A program made the translations under genes and the position numbers. The notes under the pieces are model-generated. The model was not told the DNA's origin. It saw only the letters and a list, made by a program, of their open reading frames with translations, and did no database searches. DNA of 26,230 bases, taken from positions 1-26,230 of the IMG/VR virus record IMGVR_UViG_3300008114_000134; one strand, given 5' to 3'. The DNA comes from a virus. Positions 656 through 26,230 of the stretch are shown here, piece after piece. Within the stretch, counting starts at the first letter, position 1, and each line of letters begins with the position of its first letter.

Positions 656-671
656 TGTGATTTACATCACA
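656..671. promoter_or_regulatory. GlxR/Crp-like operator, copy 1
   Basis: TGTGATTTACATCACA matches TGTGANNTANNTCACA perfectly. It shares the extended form TGTGAkTTACmTCACATTA with the copy at 363-378, so the central TTAC and the flanking ATTA are also conserved. Same spacing to a TTGACA box as the other copy (10 versus 11 bases). Either the host GlxR/Crp or a phage regulator with similar specificity could bind it. Confidence 0.65.
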
Positions 672-710: not shown

Positions 711-734
711 AAGTAGTTGAAAGTTCAACTACTT
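711..734. repeat. 24-bp palindrome
   Basis: Perfect inverted repeat with 11-bp arms (AAGTAGTTGAA and TTCAACTACTT) around a 2-bp centre. The two-base centre makes it a better dimeric protein-binding site than an RNA hairpin. It lies between the leftward promoter and the tandem repeats of the origin region, so it could be an operator for a replication initiator or phage repressor. Confidence 0.65.
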
Positions 735-739
735 CCCCG

Positions 740-800
740 CTATGTTACCGATGAGTAACTTACAGGGTCTCTATGTTACCGACCAGTAACTTAAGGTTCT
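740..800 (+). repeat. Two tandem 30-31-bp units, each with a GTTAC-N6-GTAAC palindrome
   Basis: Unit 1 (740-770) and unit 2 (771-800) abut directly. Both start CTATGTTACCGA and continue AGTAACTTA, then a GGGTCT/GGTTCT end. Each has a perfect GTTAC/GTAAC inverted repeat with a 6-bp spacer (744-759 and 775-790). The palindromes are 31 bp apart, about three helical turns, so two dimers would sit on the same face. This resembles iterons of plasmid-type origins. It lies just left of the DnaA boxes. Confidence 0.65.
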
Positions 801-805
801 CGAAG

Positions 806-900
806 TTATCCACAGGGCAAAGTTATCCACAGGTTTATCCACAGGCAGATAGTTCCCCTGTGGATAATTATTGATAATCCGATTTTCATTTATTATGTAA
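806..900. other. Probable replication origin core: four DnaA boxes plus AT-rich unwinding region
   Basis: Four perfect 9/9 copies of the DnaA box TTATCCACA: 806-814, 823-831 and 835-843 in direct orientation and 859-867 inverted. A very AT-rich stretch follows (about 864-900, including TTATTGATAAT and TTTATTATG), the usual layout of a DNA unwinding element next to a DnaA cluster. Four perfect matches in 62 bases are far beyond chance. Iteron-like repeats (740-800) lie immediately to the left. Phage/plasmid P1, F and pSC101 use DnaA boxes together with iterons, so a theta-type, host-DnaA-assisted origin is the natural reading. DnaA titration or a DnaA-regulated promoter is the alternative. Confidence 0.75.
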
Positions 901-907
901 ACCTAAA

Positions 908-926
908 GAGACCCTTGATGGGTCTC
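908..926. other. Stem-loop
   Basis: GAGACCC and GGGTCTC form a perfect 7-bp stem around TTGAT. On the leftward strand it is followed by TTTAGG, on the rightward by ACAATATGAG, so neither side has a convincing terminator U-run. It may be a weak terminator or a structural element at the right edge of the origin. Confidence 0.4.
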
Positions 927-960: not shown

Positions 961-977
961 TCGATATGTCGACAATT
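961..977 (+). repeat. Origin-flanking 17-bp direct repeat, right copy
   Basis: TCGATATGTCGACAATT, second copy of the repeat at 692-708. The copies are about 270 bp apart with the DnaA boxes between them. A TGACCC/GGGTCA inverted repeat (996-1019, 12-base spacer) follows a little further right. Confidence 0.6.
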
Positions 978-1338: not shown

Positions 1339-3207
1339 ATGGGACGTAAAGCCGGTAAGCAAGATATGTCCAAGAAGGAAGCCCAGGAGCGAGTTCTCAT
1401 CCAACTAGCCCAGGGCAACACCATTACTGGTGCTATGGGTACCGTCAACCGTAATGACACAACTTTTAGACAATGGGTGATGCAAGACCCTGAGTTCAAG
1501 GAACGCTCCGAAAAAGCCCGCCTAGAAGGTAAGGGCATCAAGGCTGACCTCAAGGAGTTAAAGGACATCGAGTTCCCTGACTTCTGTGAGCAGTTCCTAG
1601 ATACCAAACTCTTCCCCCACCACCTCAACTGGTTCGATATGATTGAGGGTCGGGAACCTAGATGGCTACATCCTGCTATGACCTACGAACAGGCAGCCCT
1701 CAACAGAATCTTAATTAACGTACCACCTGAGCACGCCAAGTCTACGGTCATCACGACCAACTACGTGGTCTACCGAATTGTGACCAACCCGAACACTAGA
1801 GTCATTATCGTCTCTAAGACTCAGGGTATGGCTCGTAAGTTCCTAGGAGCAATCAAGACTCGACTAAGCCATCCGGCTTACACCAAGTTACAGGTTGCCT
1901 TCGGTCCAAATGGTGGATACAAGGCAGATGCTACCCAGTGGCAGGCAGATATGATTTACCTAGGTACTGGTAGAGATTCAGGCGAGAAGGACCCAACGGT
2001 TCAAGCCCTCGGTATCGGTTCTCAGATTTACGGTGCACGTGCCGACTTGATTATCGTCGATGACGCTGTGATGGGTTCAAATGCCCACGAGTGGGAAAAA
2101 CAGATGGACTGGCTTCAGAAGGAAGTTATCACCCGTCTTGGTAGACACGGTAAGTTAATTATCGTTGGAACCAGAGTGGCACCGATTGACCTCTACAAGA
2201 TGCTCCGTGACCCAGGGCAGTGGTCCGGTGGCAAGTCACCTTTCACCTACTGCGCTATGCCAGCCGTTCTTGAGTTTGATGAGAAGCCTGCTAACTGGAA
2301 AACACTTTGGGCTAAATCAGACCAACAAGAAAACGAATTGGATGACCCAGATGAGAACGGACTTTTTCCCAAGTGGGATGGACCTTCTCTCTTTACGCGC
2401 CGCTCTGAAGTCGCACCGTCAGTTTGGGCTATGGTCTACCAGCAAGAAGATGTCCAAGAAGACAGCATCTTCTCCCCTATCTGTATCCAAGGTTCCGTCA
2501 ACGGAATGCGAAAGCGCGGTCCTCTCAAAGTAGGAACTGCTGGACATCCTAAGCATCTTGAGTCAACCTATACAGTTATGGGTCTTGACCCTGCTATGGC
2601 AGGTGCCACAGGTGCAGTCATTGTTACTTACAACAGAGCCGACGGAAAGATTTACGTACTTGATGCAGTCAATATGACTGACCCAAGCCCAGCCAAGATT
2701 CAATCCTTGATTGAAGAATGGGTTGAGAAGTACAAGCCACAAGAACTGCGTATTGAAATTAACGCTCACCAGAAGGCTTACGCCCTGGATGAGAACTTAA
2801 GAAACTTTCTAGCCCAGTATGGGTGCCAGTTGAACTCACACTTCACTGGTAAGAATAAGTGGGACACATCTTTTGGTGTGGCATCTATGGCAATGCTCTT
2901 TGGCAATGCACGTGATGGTCGATTCCAAGATAACAACATCATCGAACTGCCTTCTAACGAAGGCTCCGAAGGTCTTAAGACTTTGGTTCAAGAGTTGATT
3001 ACCTGGAAGCCAGACACCAAGAACCCTACCGACTGCGTTATGGCTCTATGGTTTGCGATTATTCGCATCCGTGAGTTGATGCAGCAGTCATCCAGAGTGG
3101 GACAGTACCAAACCAACCGATGGGCAACTAGGGCGCAGATGTCCTCACGTGGCTCACTGAATTTAGACGAAGCCTTTGCAGAGCAATGGGCACAAACTTA
3201 CGGATAG
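1339..3207 (+). CDS. terL: Terminase large subunit with N-terminal small-terminase-like HTH
   Basis: 622-aa packaging motor and nuclease. Residues about 12-66 look like the helix-turn-helix of phage small terminases: LAQGNTITGAMGTVNRNDTT followed by FRQWVMQDPEFKERSEKAR. The ATPase follows: Walker A-type VPPEHAKST (128-136), Walker B LIIVDD (237-242) and a coupling-motif-like IIVGTR (274-279). The RNase H-like nuclease has its expected acids at D417 (MGLDPAMAG), E473 (RIEINAH) and about D566 (NPTDCVMALWF). Walker A has A in place of the usual G before K (EHAKS rather than RHGKS). No separate small terminase gene is seen in the window. The frame opens the rightward late operon; the next gene starts 8 bases after its stop. 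Confidence 0.92.
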   Translation: MGRKAGKQDMSKKEAQERVLIQLAQGNTITGAMGTVNRNDTTFRQWVMQDPEFKERSEKARLEGKGIKADLKELKDIEFPDFCEQFLDTKLFPHHLNWFDMIEGREPRWLHPAMTYEQAALNRILINVPPEHAKSTVITTNYVVYRIVTNPNTRVIIVSKTQGMARKFLGAIKTRLSHPAYTKLQVAFGPNGGYKADATQWQADMIYLGTGRDSGEKDPTVQALGIGSQIYGARADLIIVDDAVMGSNAHEWEKQMDWLQKEVITRLGRHGKLIIVGTRVAPIDLYKMLRDPGQWSGGKSPFTYCAMPAVLEFDEKPANWKTLWAKSDQQENELDDPDENGLFPKWDGPSLFTRRSEVAPSVWAMVYQQEDVQEDSIFSPICIQGSVNGMRKRGPLKVGTAGHPKHLESTYTVMGLDPAMAGATGAVIVTYNRADGKIYVLDAVNMTDPSPAKIQSLIEEWVEKYKPQELRIEINAHQKAYALDENLRNFLAQYGCQLNSHFTGKNKWDTSFGVASMAMLFGNARDGRFQDNNIIELPSNEGSEGLKTLVQELITWKPDTKNPTDCVMALWFAIIRIRELMQQSSRVGQYQTNRWATRAQMSSRGSLNLDEAFAEQWAQTYG

Positions 3208-5579: not shown

Positions 5580-6044
5580 GTGACTACTGCACCTCAAGAC
5601 CCACGTGGCGGATACCGCCCAACAGCAGGTCAAAATAACACAGGTGTTTCAGCAACAGGTGGTAACGGTTCAGCCGACGGTGTTCCAAACATCAACTACA
5701 CAGGCTTTGCGTATGGACAGAACCAAGAAATTAACCAAGCAGCGAACTCAGGTCTACCTATGGGTCAGCAACCAGCAACACCTGCTGGTATGGCAAATAT
5801 GAATCTTCCGGAGATTACTCCTATCACCGCACCTTCAGAGACACCTGACCGCCCTATTACATACGGTATGCCATTCGGTGATGGTGCTGGTCCAGAAGTT
5901 AACCCACTTCCTGTAGGTCTCGCTCAACAGCAGGACCCTTCATATCAAATTATTCGTGCGCTTTACCAACAGAATCCACGCAACGAAGACCTGCGTTATC
6001 TTGTTGAGACAATGGATGCTCAAGCACAGCAAATGGTGCAGTAG
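5580..6044 (+). CDS. Pro/Gln/Asn-rich virion-associated protein, unknown function
   Basis: 154 aa from a GTG start with a strong TAGGAGG Shine-Dalgarno. Residues 1-120 are low complexity, rich in Gly, Asn, Gln and Pro (RGGYRPTAGQNNTG, PMGQQPATPAGM) and probably disordered. The last 35 residues look like an ordered helical tail (DPSYQIIRALYQQNPRNEDL). The stop codon overlaps the GTG of the next gene (TAGTG), so translation is probably coupled. Position after the protease suggests a minor head or internal protein, perhaps a protease substrate. I do not recognise a family. Confidence 0.7.
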   Translation: MTTAPQDPRGGYRPTAGQNNTGVSATGGNGSADGVPNINYTGFAYGQNQEINQAANSGLPMGQQPATPAGMANMNLPEITPITAPSETPDRPITYGMPFGDGAGPEVNPLPVGLAQQQDPSYQIIRALYQQNPRNEDLRYLVETMDAQAQQMVQ

Positions 6045-9000
6045 TGGCAGACCAGAAAAAACTTTCAGGCGTACTCTCACAGGCTCAACTTGATGCTGAG
6101 GCGCTTTACGCTGCAGCAGCAGGCATAAATCCTGCACAGGCTGAACTGATTAAGAAGAACGCACAGGGAAACATTATGTCTCCAGGTGTTCTCCAGTCAT
6201 TGTCTGCACTAGGTGTAGATGCCAAGTCTGGCGTAGCAGCAAGCATTGCTAATATTGATGCGTCAACTCGTGAACAACGTCTTGCTAATCAGAAAGATGT
6301 TGCTACAAAGCGAGAGACTGAAGCATTTAAGGATACTAAGCGCGGTCAAGTTTGGCAAGCAATTAAGTTTGGTGCTCGTGGTGTAATCACAGCCTTCAGC
6401 GCAATTCCTCAGTTCGTAGATGCAACATATAGAGTAACTCGTGAAGAGGTCCAGAATCGTGGAGTTGTATCTGGATTAACCGCAGGCTTGGGTATTAACC
6501 CATTCCTTAGCGGTGAAGAAAAAGGCAAGATTATTGATAGAACTTTAGAGCAGACTCAGTACGGTCAGATTGCACTCAAATCAATTGCTGATGCTAAAAA
6601 AGGAAAGTTCCCTGACATCCAAATGGGTGAAGGATTTTTTGCTTCTGAAGAAATTGGTATTGGGCACAAGGCTCGCCAGGCTTCACTTGGTGCAGCAAAG
6701 ATTGCAATTCGTAATGACGAAGGCAAACTCCTTGGCTACCGACCAAGAACATTATTTGGTGATTCATTCTCGAATGTATTCACATTAGGAAATCCTGAGA
6801 CCGTAGCAGGAGCAAACATTGCTCTAGCGGCAGATATTGCTGGCTCATTCTTCCTTGACCCAGGCATTGCCAAAGGTCAGCAGATTAGAGAACTAAGAAA
6901 ACTTGCAGAACAACAGCAAGCATCAGGTGCTCTTAAGGCTGCAGCAGAGACTATGAAGCGTCTGTCAGACATTGAAGAAGTAGAAAAGCAGGTCATTGAA
7001 TCCGCTAAGGCTCTTCGTACTCAAGCAGATGCAGTCAAGAACCTTGACGCTGAAACTTTAACAAAGCGTGCACGTGATGCACGTGATGCTGCAACTGGCA
7101 AAGCCGAAGATACAATTAAATCTTCAGTAAGTGTACGTGTTGCACAGGCTCGTCTTGACGAGATTGCAGCAAAGAAGGCTGAACTTATTGAGAAGGCTAA
7201 TACAGCCACTGAATCTCGTAAGGCTATCGAGGCAGCACTTAAGGCTCCTGCAATAGTTGAGCGTACACAGAATGCTTTAATCAAGCAGACAAAGCAACTT
7301 GAGCAAGTCAAGTCAGAAATTTCAGATGCTGTTGCAGCAGGTCGTTCTCCGATGTATACATCAGATGACCTTGACAATCTACAAGCATCTATTAAAGCAC
7401 TAGAAGAAAAACTCGCTACAACAAAGGGTTTAATTCCAGAGACTCCTGTAACACAGGATGCACTCCTTGCTGCTAAAGAACTTGAAAAGAAGTCTAGGGC
7501 TTTCGTTAAGGAAGCATCTGAGGCTGAAAAGTTCTCTATCAAGCAGGTAGCAGAGCGTTCTAAAACACAGAGAGCAATGGAATCACTGAATGAGCGTGCT
7601 CTTCGTGAGGCTGCTAAGGCTAAGAAGGCTGAGCGTACTCTTTCAGAGAAACTATCTGATGCAACTCTTAGTCTCAAGGATAAGCGTAAGGCTTGGGAGA
7701 TAGATGTTCAGCGTCTTGCTAACATCAATCAAACTGCAGAGCGTCCAGAGTTTGCATATCAGGCTATCGCTGACTTCTTGACCGCTGGTCACGGAACTGC
7801 AGCAGTTGATAAACTCGTTGAGTTAACCGACTGGAAGCAAATCTGGCGTAAAGCAGATGGCAAGATTAACCACGATGTAGCACGAGCACTCGCTGATGCT
7901 ACAACTCCAGATGATATTGTTGACATTCTCAGCCCATATCTCCTTAAGGGTGATATCCAGGCTGGGGTTCTAAAGCCAGGATTACTTGCCCGTAGAGGCG
8001 AAGCAATTACTGCCCGCACAAAGTTTGCTATGCCAGCAGTGCGTACACTCCAGGGTGTAGGGGCACGAGTACAGTCTCGTTTAATCGAGCACGAGAAGTA
8101 CGCTAACCTATTTTCAGCATTCAATAATGGTGCACAGGTTGTTGCCAAGTCGGTAAGACGTGGATATCAGACTAAGGTTAAGGCTGGTTCTATCGTCAAT
8201 ATCCACGATAGAGAAGAACTTTTGCGTGCTACAGAAGACTTTGGCGTAGCATCTAAACTTGATAGAAAAGTTCTTGATGGAATCATTGATGAGATTGCAG
8301 ATGCTGCTTCAGCATCAGTTGCTGGCTACGCCGCATCAGTCAAATTGATGAAGGCTGTCTTTGCTCAGTATGGGGAAAAAGTTCCATCATATATGCAGGA
8401 CTCATTCAAGAGTTACACAACAGCATTCCAGAATTCTGCCGAAGAGATGTCATCTTACTGGGCTAAACGCCACGTTGCAGGAGATGCAAAACTTGAATAT
8501 ATTACACTCAAGGGCGAAAGCGTTGTTCTTCCTGGTCCACATCTTTCATCTGAGTTGTTGAACTCAACAGTATATTTCCCACCAGTTTCAGAGTTACTAC
8601 GCCTTACATCTAAGTTGAGCAAAATTAAAACAGTTTCTCAGGCAACCGAAATTGGCGATGCTCTTATCGGAAACTTCTGGAAGAAGATGGTATTGGTACG
8701 CCCGGCGTACATCATCCGTAACATTGCAGAAGAGCAGATTCGTGTGGCTGCGACAGGTCACATCTCATTCTTTAGCAATCCAGGTATGGCTATGGCTATG
8801 TGGCTTGGTCGTGACGAAGGAAAGTCTTGGCGCAAAGTCTTGCGTCAGTTTGACACATACCGTCACACAGTATTTGACGAAGGATTCTCAACTGGTGATG
8901 ATGCACTAGACATTCTTGATGAGACACTTGGTCACAATGTAAAGAACTCATATGTAGATATGATGAACTCTAATACAACTGGTCTTGATGCAAGCAACTT

Positions 9001-11485
9001 TAAGGTCTTACAGTTCAAGAACATTGGACCAGTAACCTTTGGAGCACCACGATTCTTTGATGGTATCGCTAACCAAATGCGTATGCTTAACTCAGATACA
9101 TTTGCAAGAGTCGTAGCAGGCTTTGATACACCTCAAATCAAGGCAGCAATGGCTAAGGGACAGTTCCGCCAGGATGCTGTCATTGATTACTTCCTATATG
9201 GCGCAGGGCGCAAGGAATTAGACGCATTTGCTGAGTCAACACCACAAAAGTTTAAGGCGTTTATCAAGACTCCTGAAGGTCTTAGGAGTTATCTATACAC
9301 AGGCAAGTCACCAAAGGGTGAAGATATCTCAGTTCTTGCTCGTGTGACAGAAACAACAGGTGGCAATAAGTCACTTATGGAAATGGTTGCCAGAGGCAAG
9401 GTTTCTATTGGTGGCACAGAGTTCAAAATCCCACGTCCTGAGGATGGGGCAGTTAACTCAATTAGCAATTCTAAGGCAATGAAGGCTGGCAAGAAAGCAC
9501 TGCTTGAAGAGCAGTCTAAATTTGCTAAACAACTCAAAGATACATTTTCTGATGCCGGGAACTGGGACAATGTTACGGTAAATGTTCCATCTAGGAATGT
9601 TGCTATTGCCGAAGGTGAAAATTCTAAGAACTTTGTATCTAGGTTTGTTGACGGGTTCTTTGATAAGGCTACAGAATTTGAAAAGAATACAACATTCGGT
9701 CCAGAGTTCCGTCAGGCTTACTGGGATGCTATCAATCGCATCGCAAAGTCGCTAGATTCTGACGCTAAGGCTGCACTTTTTGCTGCTGCACAGGATTCAT
9801 TGACTCCATTGCAGAAGGCTGGTAAGCCAGTAGGTTCAAAGCACCCAGTATGGAATGCATTTAATGCAGCAGATGGCAATGGTCCACTATCTTTGGAAGA
9901 TGCTCACGCATATGCAGACAACTATGCTCGTAAGCAAGTCAAAGACCTGTTCTATAATGCTCAAGAGAAGCGACTTATCTTCCATCAACTACGTTTGATT
10001 GCACCATTTGCAGCAGCGTGGGAGAATACAATCAGCAAGTGGGCTGAACTGGGTATGGAAAACCCATATAAGATTTATAAGGGTGTTAAAGCACTACAGT
10101 GGGCACAAGACCCAGAGTCTTCATCCATCTATCTTATGACAGATGCTTCAGAATACTACGACCCTAACCAGGGATTCTTCTTTACTAACCCTGATTCCGG
10201 TCAGCGTCAATTCTTTGTACCATTTGCTGGCACCGTAATGGCTGCCCTTGCGAAGCAAGTAACTGGTGCTAACTACAATGGTGCACCTATAGCATTTACT
10301 GCTAACCCTATGTCATTTAACTTCGCATTCGGTTCAGGAACAATGCTTCCTGGTATCGGTCCTGGAGTTACACTGCCTCTTAGCGCATTAAGTACATTCA
10401 ATAACAATATGATTGACAATATGCCAATGGGTATCCAGAAGTGGCTATTCCCATTCGGGCGTGCAGACTTTAGTGGTGGATTGCAGTCAGCGATTCTACC
10501 TGGTAACTGGAACAAGATTCTAGGCTTTGCAACAGGCTCAGAGAATACATACGCATCTAACTTTAAGCCAGTAATGAACTATCTTGCATCAGGTGGAAAC
10601 TATAACCTAGATAACCCTGATGACCAGGCTCGCTTGGTTGCAGATACAGATACATTCTCACGCTGGGAATCAGTAATGCGTGGCGTTGTTGGTCTAGTAT
10701 CACCTGTAAGCCTTATCCAGAATGGTCTTGCCAAGGATAAGGATGGGGATACAACCCTACAGACAGCACTGCTTGAAGATTTCCAGACTATATTCCAGAG
10801 CAATGATGGCGATTACAACAAGACTTGGTATGACTTCCTTAACCTATACGGTGCATCTCAAGCCTTCGCGCTTATCACAGCAAGCGCAGGAAATGGTCCA
10901 TCTAACTGGGATTCATACAACTTCGTAATATCTAACCCTGATGTTGCATCTAAGTATCAAGATGTATGGGGATATGTAATGCCAGGTGGTGGGTTATCTA
11001 CAGAGATGTACAAGTGGAATGTTATTCACGGTACAAAGAAAAAGTTATCTCCAAAAGAAATTCTTGATAAGGTAAACAACCAGCGTTATTACGCTACCCG
11101 TGATGCACTTATGACACGAGTAGATGCAGGCGAACTAGACAAAGACGGTTATCGCGTAGCACTCCAGACACTTAAGGATGCTATGGGCGGTGGACCTGTT
11201 GCAGAGTTCGACCCTAATAAGCGTGGTCGTGTTATCTCTCAACTCCAAGAACTTACTAGGGATGAGCGATTTGTAGATGCTCCATCAGTAGTAGCATTAC
11301 GCGACTATATGGCTTTGCGTCAGACATCATTAGATAACCTAGGCAAGAAGACATTCACTGGTGCAAAGTCAGAACAAGAAGAACGTGACTGGCTTGCAGC
11401 ACAAGCAGAGTGGGTTATCGAAAGTAATCCAGATTTTCAGAAGATGTTCTACGCATTTTTCGCAAATGAATTGGAAGGTAAATAA
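6044..11485 (+). CDS. Giant internal virion protein (1813 aa), probable ejection protein
   Basis: GTG start overlapping the previous stop. Residues about 280-560 form a long Ala/Lys/Glu-rich helical or coiled-coil region. A mixed region follows, with segments such as WKKMVLVRPAYIIRNIAEEQ (about 877) and LIFHQLRLIAPFAAAWENTI (about 1310). A hydrophobic, Gly-rich stretch lies around 1390-1450 (FVPFAGTVMAALAKQV and later), which could insert in membranes. I see no transglycosylase, RNA polymerase or other catalytic motif. With the two following genes it parallels the three internal core/ejection proteins of T7-like phages, which leave the head and span the envelope during DNA entry. A tape measure is less likely because no tail-tube or chaperone genes lie next to it and it precedes scaffold and capsid. 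Confidence 0.75.
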   Translation: MADQKKLSGVLSQAQLDAEALYAAAAGINPAQAELIKKNAQGNIMSPGVLQSLSALGVDAKSGVAASIANIDASTREQRLANQKDVATKRETEAFKDTKRGQVWQAIKFGARGVITAFSAIPQFVDATYRVTREEVQNRGVVSGLTAGLGINPFLSGEEKGKIIDRTLEQTQYGQIALKSIADAKKGKFPDIQMGEGFFASEEIGIGHKARQASLGAAKIAIRNDEGKLLGYRPRTLFGDSFSNVFTLGNPETVAGANIALAADIAGSFFLDPGIAKGQQIRELRKLAEQQQASGALKAAAETMKRLSDIEEVEKQVIESAKALRTQADAVKNLDAETLTKRARDARDAATGKAEDTIKSSVSVRVAQARLDEIAAKKAELIEKANTATESRKAIEAALKAPAIVERTQNALIKQTKQLEQVKSEISDAVAAGRSPMYTSDDLDNLQASIKALEEKLATTKGLIPETPVTQDALLAAKELEKKSRAFVKEASEAEKFSIKQVAERSKTQRAMESLNERALREAAKAKKAERTLSEKLSDATLSLKDKRKAWEIDVQRLANINQTAERPEFAYQAIADFLTAGHGTAAVDKLVELTDWKQIWRKADGKINHDVARALADATTPDDIVDILSPYLLKGDIQAGVLKPGLLARRGEAITARTKFAMPAVRTLQGVGARVQSRLIEHEKYANLFSAFNNGAQVVAKSVRRGYQTKVKAGSIVNIHDREELLRATEDFGVASKLDRKVLDGIIDEIADAASASVAGYAASVKLMKAVFAQYGEKVPSYMQDSFKSYTTAFQNSAEEMSSYWAKRHVAGDAKLEYITLKGESVVLPGPHLSSELLNSTVYFPPVSELLRLTSKLSKIKTVSQATEIGDALIGNFWKKMVLVRPAYIIRNIAEEQIRVAATGHISFFSNPGMAMAMWLGRDEGKSWRKVLRQFDTYRHTVFDEGFSTGDDALDILDETLGHNVKNSYVDMMNSNTTGLDASNFKVLQFKNIGPVTFGAPRFFDGIANQMRMLNSDTFARVVAGFDTPQIKAAMAKGQFRQDAVIDYFLYGAGRKELDAFAESTPQKFKAFIKTPEGLRSYLYTGKSPKGEDISVLARVTETTGGNKSLMEMVARGKVSIGGTEFKIPRPEDGAVNSISNSKAMKAGKKALLEEQSKFAKQLKDTFSDAGNWDNVTVNVPSRNVAIAEGENSKNFVSRFVDGFFDKATEFEKNTTFGPEFRQAYWDAINRIAKSLDSDAKAALFAAAQDSLTPLQKAGKPVGSKHPVWNAFNAADGNGPLSLEDAHAYADNYARKQVKDLFYNAQEKRLIFHQLRLIAPFAAAWENTISKWAELGMENPYKIYKGVKALQWAQDPESSSIYLMTDASEYYDPNQGFFFTNPDSGQRQFFVPFAGTVMAALAKQVTGANYNGAPIAFTANPMSFNFAFGSGTMLPGIGPGVTLPLSALSTFNNNMIDNMPMGIQKWLFPFGRADFSGGLQSAILPGNWNKILGFATGSENTYASNFKPVMNYLASGGNYNLDNPDDQARLVADTDTFSRWESVMRGVVGLVSPVSLIQNGLAKDKDGDTTLQTALLEDFQTIFQSNDGDYNKTWYDFLNLYGASQAFALITASAGNGPSNWDSYNFVISNPDVASKYQDVWGYVMPGGGLSTEMYKWNVIHGTKKKLSPKEILDKVNNQRYYATRDALMTRVDAGELDKDGYRVALQTLKDAMGGGPVAEFDPNKRGRVISQLQELTRDERFVDAPSVVALRDYMALRQTSLDNLGKKTFTGAKSEQEERDWLAAQAEWVIESNPDFQKMFYAFFANELEGK

Positions 11486-25309: not shown

Positions 25310-25513
25310 ATGACAGCGCAAGATTGGGCTGCGTTAACCGTAGCAATAATGACAATACTCGCAGGGTTTGCGGCATTTGTCAGATGGCTAGTAAAGCATT
25401 ATTTGTACGAATTAAAACCAAATGGGGGCGGTTCCGTGAAAGACCAAGTGAACCGATTGGAAGAACGCGTTGACCAAATCTATCTCTTACTCTGCGAGAG
25501 CAAAGGCAAGTAA
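25310..25513 (+). CDS. Holin-like small membrane protein, 67 aa
   Basis: One transmembrane helix (AALTVAIMTILAGFAAFVRW, about residues 7-26), then a cytoplasmic segment with LKPNGGGSVKDQVNRLEERV, a short coiled coil. This one-TM plus coiled-coil layout is typical of small actinophage holins or their regulators. It starts one base after the preceding stop and lies next to a secreted protein, as expected for a lysis cassette. No endolysin is inside the window. An alternative is a membrane-bound antiholin or virion protein. Confidence 0.65.
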   Translation: MTAQDWAALTVAIMTILAGFAAFVRWLVKHYLYELKPNGGGSVKDQVNRLEERVDQIYLLLCESKGK

Positions 25514-26230
25514 GTACGCAGTATTCTTTTTACTACTAGGCACATCTTTCTTTTGGAATCCTCAAGCAAATGCAGCAACTGCATATACTGATGTGACTTG
25601 TGCTAATCAAGAAGGCACTCAACAAACATATCAAATTGGTTGGGATAATAGTCAGCAGTTCTTTGAAGGCAAGGGTTATATCCCTAGATTATTTTGTGAG
25701 GGTGGGTATTCATCTTCAGGATTTACTATCTATGTAAGCGATAATCTTGTCGATGCTTCTACTGGTTACTATAATGGCGTATCAGTAGAACCAACACCAA
25801 GCCCAACACCAACCCCTGAGCCAACCCCAACACCTACTGTAAGTCCCAGTCCGACGCCCGAACCTTCTCCGACTGTAGAGTCACAAACTGCTCCCGCAAG
25901 TGTTGAAACTCAGACTCCCGTTGTCGAAACTTCAACTGCTCCTGTTTCAACTGAGACTGAAACTGTTTCCTCTGAGACATCAACAGCAGTACAAGAGACA
26001 GCAACAGTAGTAGATACATCGACTGTAACATCTGAGACTCCTTCAGTTCCTAATGAGCAGGCACCTAGCGTACCTACTCCGCCTCCGGCAGTGGAGCCTG
26101 AACCAACACCTGCGCCCCCGGCTCCAGCACCTCAACCTGAGCCTCAGCCAGAACCAGTTGCGATACCTGACCCTGCACCGGAACCTCCGGCTCCAGAAGA
26201 GGAACCCCCGGTACCTGTGGAAGAGCCACC
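25470..26230 (+). CDS. Secreted Pro/Thr/Glu-rich protein, TTG start, runs off window
   Basis: An open frame in a different phase from the holin-like gene extends from 25452 to the window end without a stop. A TTG at 25470 with GGAAG just upstream gives MTKSISYSARAKASKYAVFF, then LLLGTSFFWNPQANA and ATAYTD: a good signal peptide with an ANA-A cleavage site. The mature part begins with a small domain containing two cysteines (DVTCANQEGTQQTYQIGWDN; PRLFCEGGYSSSGFTIYVSD), then a long Pro/Thr/Ser/Glu linker of PTP, PEP and VETS-type motifs through the edge. It overlaps the holin-like gene by 44 bases. The linker would span a cell wall and a domain may follow beyond the edge. Could be a wall-spanning lysis, adhesion or superinfection protein. 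Confidence 0.6.
   Translation, partial: MTKSISYSARAKASKYAVFFLLLGTSFFWNPQANAATAYTDVTCANQEGTQQTYQIGWDNSQQFFEGKGYIPRLFCEGGYSSSGFTIYVSDNLVDASTGYYNGVSVEPTPSPTPTPEPTPTPTVSPSPTPEPSPTVESQTAPASVETQTPVVETSTAPVSTETETVSSETSTAVQETATVVDTSTVTSETPSVPNEQAPSVPTPPPAVEPEPTPAPPAPAPQPEPQPEPVAIPDPAPEPPAPEEEPPVPVEEP

Follow-up and report, generated by a model that had tools for sequence, protein, structure and literature searches.

The replication origins of P1 (oriR), F (oriS) and pSC101 hold DnaA boxes near an AT-rich stretch. To our knowledge, most studies of host DnaA acting on phage control DNA have dealt with lambda and plasmid-like phages. In lambda, DnaA footprints lie next to pO (PMC3985674). DnaA is an established transcription factor; the E. 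coli protein favours box pairs 2 or 3 bp apart, and the datA and DARS loci of E. coli are small clusters of DnaA boxes outside oriC (PMC11317965).

The window analyzed in this work is the complete viral contig IMGVR_UViG_3300008114_000134 (26,230 bp). Sequence comparison places it in a large family of phages, and 'Ca. Planktophila' (Nanopelagicales) is the host of those members that have been cultured. At least 595 terminase relatives were confirmed in IMG/VR, and the best 80 were retained as L003-L082. The terminase gene shares ~75% DNA identity with those of two isolated phages, LanE43AprE7 and LanE43AprF5 (E7 and F5), which were isolated on, and lyse, 'Ca. Planktophila' strain LanE-43 of the order Nanopelagicales, the low-GC hosts of the relatives (PMC10202952). 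From these hosts we infer a Planktophila-type host for the window phage itself, and six complete Planktophila-type genomes reached via a 16S probe, including LanE-43, were used for host comparisons. The DnaA boxes are housed at 571-1338, a divergent intergenic region bordered on the left by small leftward ORFs, the first of which is followed by others further left, and on the right by the rightward terminase gene terL (Table 1). Elsewhere in the window, a 1813-aa protein encoded at 6044-11485 in the virion gene block has no PHROG match at E 0.001, and an ORF at 25470-26228 that runs off the contig end has a long low-complexity tail rich in proline, threonine and glutamate.

Table 1. Positions of sequence features in and around the divergent control region of the window
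Feature	Position	Strand	Remarks
First leftward ORF, 63 aa	379..570	-	start of the variable leftward small-gene operon
CRP-like palindrome TGTGATTTACATCACA	656..671		in 43/60 relatives, usually ~130 bp left of the element
Palindrome AAGTAGTTGAA-N2-TTCAACTACTT	711..734		one of the optional palindromes of the region
GTTAC-N6-GTAAC palindrome, copy 1	744..759		motif shared with the operator that precedes the ETF gene of the host
GTTAC-N6-GTAAC palindrome, copy 2	775..790		motif replaces the element-proximal DnaA box in L006
DnaA box 1, TTATCCACA	806..814	+	identical to the main box at host oriC
DnaA box 2, TTATCCACA	823..831	+	3-bp gap to box 3 (double-box spacing)
DnaA box 3, TTATCCACA	835..843	+	ends 4 bp before the GATAGT core
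GATAGT core of the GGGG(A)GATAGTC element	848..853	+	core only in the window; G-run weak or incomplete
Predicted terminase cut / terminal-repeat end	between 850 and 851		analogous to GGGGGGAGTG/AGTCC of the related Streptomyces phages
DnaA box 4, inverted	859..867	-	5 bp beyond the GATAGT core; same in L023
AT-rich stretch	861..910		76% A+T; right of the boxes
Palindrome TGTCGACA	967..974		recurrent in the family
Large terminase subunit (terL)	1339..3207	+	phrog_38, 3.2e-71; anchor for all comparisons

A preliminary description of this locus had reported a phage with four exact host-type DnaA boxes, three direct and one inverted, followed by an AT-rich region, and all of this holds. The boxes start 17, 12 and 24 bp apart, span ~62 bp, and are the only exact copies of TTATCCACA in the 26,230 bp. 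When the whole window was shuffled with its dinucleotides preserved, 0.31 copies arose on average and never four. Across the family, TTATCCACA reaches a density of 0.46/kb within the 900 bp preceding terL, against 0.008/kb in the remaining sequence. The box form, which had been taken as informative about the host, also agrees with it, in that oriC of the low-GC Nanopelagicales mainly uses TTATCCACA and not the TTGTCCACA of high-GC actinobacteria. Since the phage boxes equal the commonest box in the dnaA flanks and oriC of the six host genomes, host DnaA very likely binds them. Boxes 2 and 3 form a same-strand pair whose 3-bp gap is within the spacing favoured by E. coli DnaA; an intergenic control region carrying boxes at such a functional double-box spacing is what we would expect of a host-DnaA operator.

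The spacing of box pairs was surveyed in 120 viral loci (L086-L205) fetched with a 1-14-bp gap pattern. Gaps of 2 bp (35), 3 bp (40) and 4 bp (18) together account for 93 pairs and gaps of 11-14 bp for 40, with only 8 pairs at 5-10 bp, so that the two peaks lie about one helical turn apart. This bimodal pattern in unrelated viral contigs suggests that viral box pairs are generally under selection for DnaA binding, and that host-DnaA binding has been selected in many phages. Both the spacing selection and a box density far above background and shuffles make it very improbable that the four boxes are chance or inert sequence brought along by recombination, even though this region turns over quickly as a hot spot of recombination. 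A general adjacency of viral DnaA arrays to terminases was considered and dropped, as the neighbours are mixed (terminases, methyltransferases, resolvases, primases) and a clear terminase excess was not established.

The distribution of the boxes was analyzed in the 60 relatives with a full upstream region, window included, a set drawn from the nearest terminases that may represent the family imperfectly. Exact boxes occur in 11 and are absent from 49 of these closest listed terminase relatives. On the terL tree, carriers of at least two boxes require 8 changes for 8 rows, no fewer than with shuffled labels; the boxes are scattered without clustering, and their gain and loss is rapid. Near-identical terminases accompany opposite box content, as in L061 (four boxes) versus L066 (none) and L011 (two) versus L005 (none). 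Exact boxes are missing altogether from E7 and F5, which are cultured and lytic, and from the near-full-length relative G002. The more distant relatives L135, L146 and L187 also have boxes close upstream of terL. A leftward gene linked to the boxes was sought among the gene families tested in 38 loci, where the best uncorrected p of 0.005 was unconvincing.

This sporadic presence would suit an accessory function such as titration of DnaA, in which replicating phage copies act as a datA-like decoy that absorbs host DnaA and blocks new rounds of host replication. Whole host genomes (1.3-1.5 Mb) hold just 5-14 exact copies of TTATCCACA, a number that a four-box phage would surpass with as few as tens of copies. 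The decoy is nevertheless improbable, as it explains neither its own small size nor the tight placement of the boxes at the terminus element described below.

The preliminary description regarded the boxes as an oriC-like core from which the phage starts replication with host DnaA, perhaps as a plasmid-like prophage. Under this model host DnaA would open the AT-rich stretch, with which the four perfect boxes are contiguous, and theta replication would start near the left genome end after loading of either host DnaB or the DnaB-like protein of the phage. Several observations are compatible with it: a cluster of high-affinity boxes, as found in an oriC, is present in the window; the more distant relatives listed above carry boxes at a similar place; and G002 has genes for a DnaB-like helicase and for a Toprim primase, along with an exonuclease and a RusA resolvase, and neither a DNA polymerase nor an initiator was recognised in the scanned proteins. 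However, the dnaA-dnaN regions of all six hosts contain an unwinding module composed of a box-like sequence, a GC-rich gap, a DnaA-trio (TACTACTACTACC; TTACTAC(T/G)ACTACC, with TTATTACTACTACC instead in one genome) and a TATATA stretch, and this module is found in none of 12 phage regions (eleven family regions with exact boxes and that of L135). A regular iteron array is absent from the window, and most box-less relatives have no iterons as a replacement; tandem repeats in the window region are limited to the boxes and one palindrome pair. AT-rich sequence comparable to that of the window is also present in the box-less relatives L005 and L006.

Cumulative GC skew, the check proposed for this model, tracks gene direction in six relatives and has no consistent minimum at the boxes, so an origin could not be located by this means. 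Conservation of the boxes in relatives, on which the origin claim had been made to depend, is largely lacking (11/60, scattered on the tree; none in E7 or F5), and the box-less relative G002 has its own helicase and primase. The plasmid-like prophage likewise found no counterpart in the gene content, since partition, integrase and Rep genes were not seen among the annotated proteins of this partial contig. A swap of replication modules between box-bearing and box-less phages was rejected as well, for ORFs of a size matching the helicase and primase of G002 occur in the box-bearing G003, G004 and G015. Because the trio is missing, most relatives are box-less, and E7, F5 and G002 are devoid of any exact box, the boxes can hardly be the essential origin of the family, and we consider a DnaA-dependent origin in the window phage doubtful.

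When the upstream regions were aligned, 54/61 relatives proved to share an element, GGGG(A)GATAGTC, that precedes terL by ~500 bp. Three Streptomyces phages with related terminases, Immanuel3, RosePharie and WRightOn, have deposited direct terminal repeats of 264-275 bp with ends GGGGGG(G)AGTG/AGTCC (the slash marks the end); in a fourth relative, Abafar, the deposited 396-bp repeat ends further right and not on the element. L056 comes from a contig whose first letters are AGTGTCC, 3 bp inside the core, where sister contigs read GGGGGAGAT/AGTGTCC; this break point is only suggestive of a terminus because the contig closes on itself with an overlap of ~127 bp. In view of its match to the Streptomyces terminal-repeat ends and to the L056 contig end, the element probably represents the terminase cut and terminal-repeat end, and is a candidate for such a site common to the Nanopelagicales phages and the Streptomyces Beephvirinae. 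An early idea that GATAGT is a promoter -10 box was given up for the terminus element after reading the Immanuel3 ends.

Relatives that possess the element contain 23 boxes, of which 22 are no more than 100 bp away from it, some to its left and others to its right. The predicted cut in the window falls between boxes 3 and 4, and the geometry of box 3 and the core matches that in L004, L019 (where the box is degenerate) and L023. In the literature searched, which largely excluded subscription journals, DnaA boxes have not been described at the terminase site of a phage. This arrangement raises the possibility of an accessory role in packaging, in which DnaA on both sides of the cut bends or marks the DNA and thereby times or places concatemer cleavage, like IHF at lambda cosB. 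Such a role would account for the clustering of boxes around an element equal to the terminal-repeat end of the Streptomyces relatives. We regard it as unlikely, given that most relatives keep the element and the terminase yet have no boxes, that the distance and side of the boxes relative to the element vary, and that the cut site in the window phage is predicted by analogy.

Palindromes are far more frequent than background in the control region and together form a mosaic there. Among the 60 relatives, the CRP-like TGTGAN6TCACA occurs in 43, TTGTCGACAA in 24, GTTAC-N-GTAAC in 14 (Markov 0.65), GTTGA-N-TCAAC in 12, and the SOS box CGAACN4GTTCG in 10 (Markov 0.1 sites per set). The SOS box is also found upstream of recA and lexA in host LanE-43, and lytic relatives may sense SOS through host LexA; such host-type boxes lie upstream of terL in L004, L005, L006, L015, L020, L023 and others. 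In both LanE-43 and IMCC25003, the motif GTTACY-N4-RGTAAC is located just upstream of an electron-transfer-flavoprotein (ETF) gene; a third host genome has a single copy. In the sisters L004 and L006, conserved flanks enclose a different block next to the element, and the GTTAC palindromes of L006 occupy the place of the boxes in L004, which is our main reason for reading the boxes as an operator.

In the window, perfect CRP/GlxR-like palindromes lie upstream of the leftward operon at 363-378 in addition to the copy in Table 1, and another is found in the Streptomyces phage Immanuel3 (L085, 304-319). A Crp-type protein is present in each of the six host genomes. The palindrome was not accepted as evidence for host CRP, as TGTGAN6TCACA is common in the phages of this family but has only 2 sites in the six host genomes. 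At 1050-1100, a conserved TTTCTGTTATAA is followed by a GCCCTG...CAGGGC hairpin, as upstream of terL in many relatives; a phage late promoter and attenuator is a possible interpretation.

We tentatively interpret the boxes as an optional host-DnaA operator in the divergent control region of the phage at its predicted genome terminus, a reading that is plausible while falling short of firm. It rests on the perfect host-type boxes, their close pairing, their position around the conserved element, their rapid turnover and the finding that relatives carry further host operators in this region, and the missing trio and regular iteron array are in line with it. According to this proposal, host DnaA would bind the cluster to form a compact complex over ~62 bp, and, depending on the replication state of the host and on its DnaA level, this complex would tune the transcription of the leftward small-gene operon, of the terminase-side leader, or of both. 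For other host signals, an equivalent role would fall to LexA (SOS) sites and to GTTACY-N4-RGTAAC sites, and the boxes would not be the required replication origin of the phage. A promoter scan of 560-1340 gave 3 sites versus 2.8 expected, no better than shuffles, and a weak promoter-like match, TTGATA-17-TATGTA, was read by eye at 871-899. Also against the operator, the boxes are up to ~150 bp from the likely leftward promoter, and their clustering at the terminus equally fits a role in packaging.

It is also possible, with somewhat greater reserve, that genuine host operators for LexA, DnaA and the ETF-gene regulator form an interchangeable set around the genome terminus that is exchanged by recombination. 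If so, each phage would be wired to a different host physiological signal, and DnaA boxes at the packaging end would couple phage development or packaging to the replication state of the host. The boxes appear as an optional, fast-swapped module next to the predicted packaging end in a phage family that is widespread and whose hosts are abundant freshwater actinobacteria. The cultured family members and the sequenced host make such reading of host state by a lytic phage directly testable.

Comparison with known systems places the locus apart from each of them. The oriC of the Nanopelagicales (acI) hosts has the same TTATCCACA boxes, some in close same-strand pairs (L224, gaps 2-3 bp), but these are spread over the dnaA flanks and accompanied by the box/TACTACTACTACC trio/TATATA module, whereas the phage boxes are packed in 62 bp and have no such module. 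Origins of the P1, F and pSC101 type share the AT-rich neighbour; in the window there are no iterons and no Rep gene was seen. Like datA and DARS, the window has a small box cluster outside oriC, although here it is on a phage. The Streptomyces Beephvirinae (Immanuel3, RosePharie, WRightOn) resemble the window family in their related terL and G-run-AG-AGTC terminus element, which in these phages is ~400 bp upstream of terL; their left ends contain no exact DnaA box, and the terminus of the window is a predicted one. A parallel in function would be lambda pR/pO, where host DnaA acts on phage control DNA with a cited effect on transcription (PMC3985674), as predicted for DnaA binding in the window. 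In lambda, the sites merely resemble the consensus and lie near ori-lambda with its own O protein, in contrast to the window, where perfect boxes stand at the terminase end with no known initiator.
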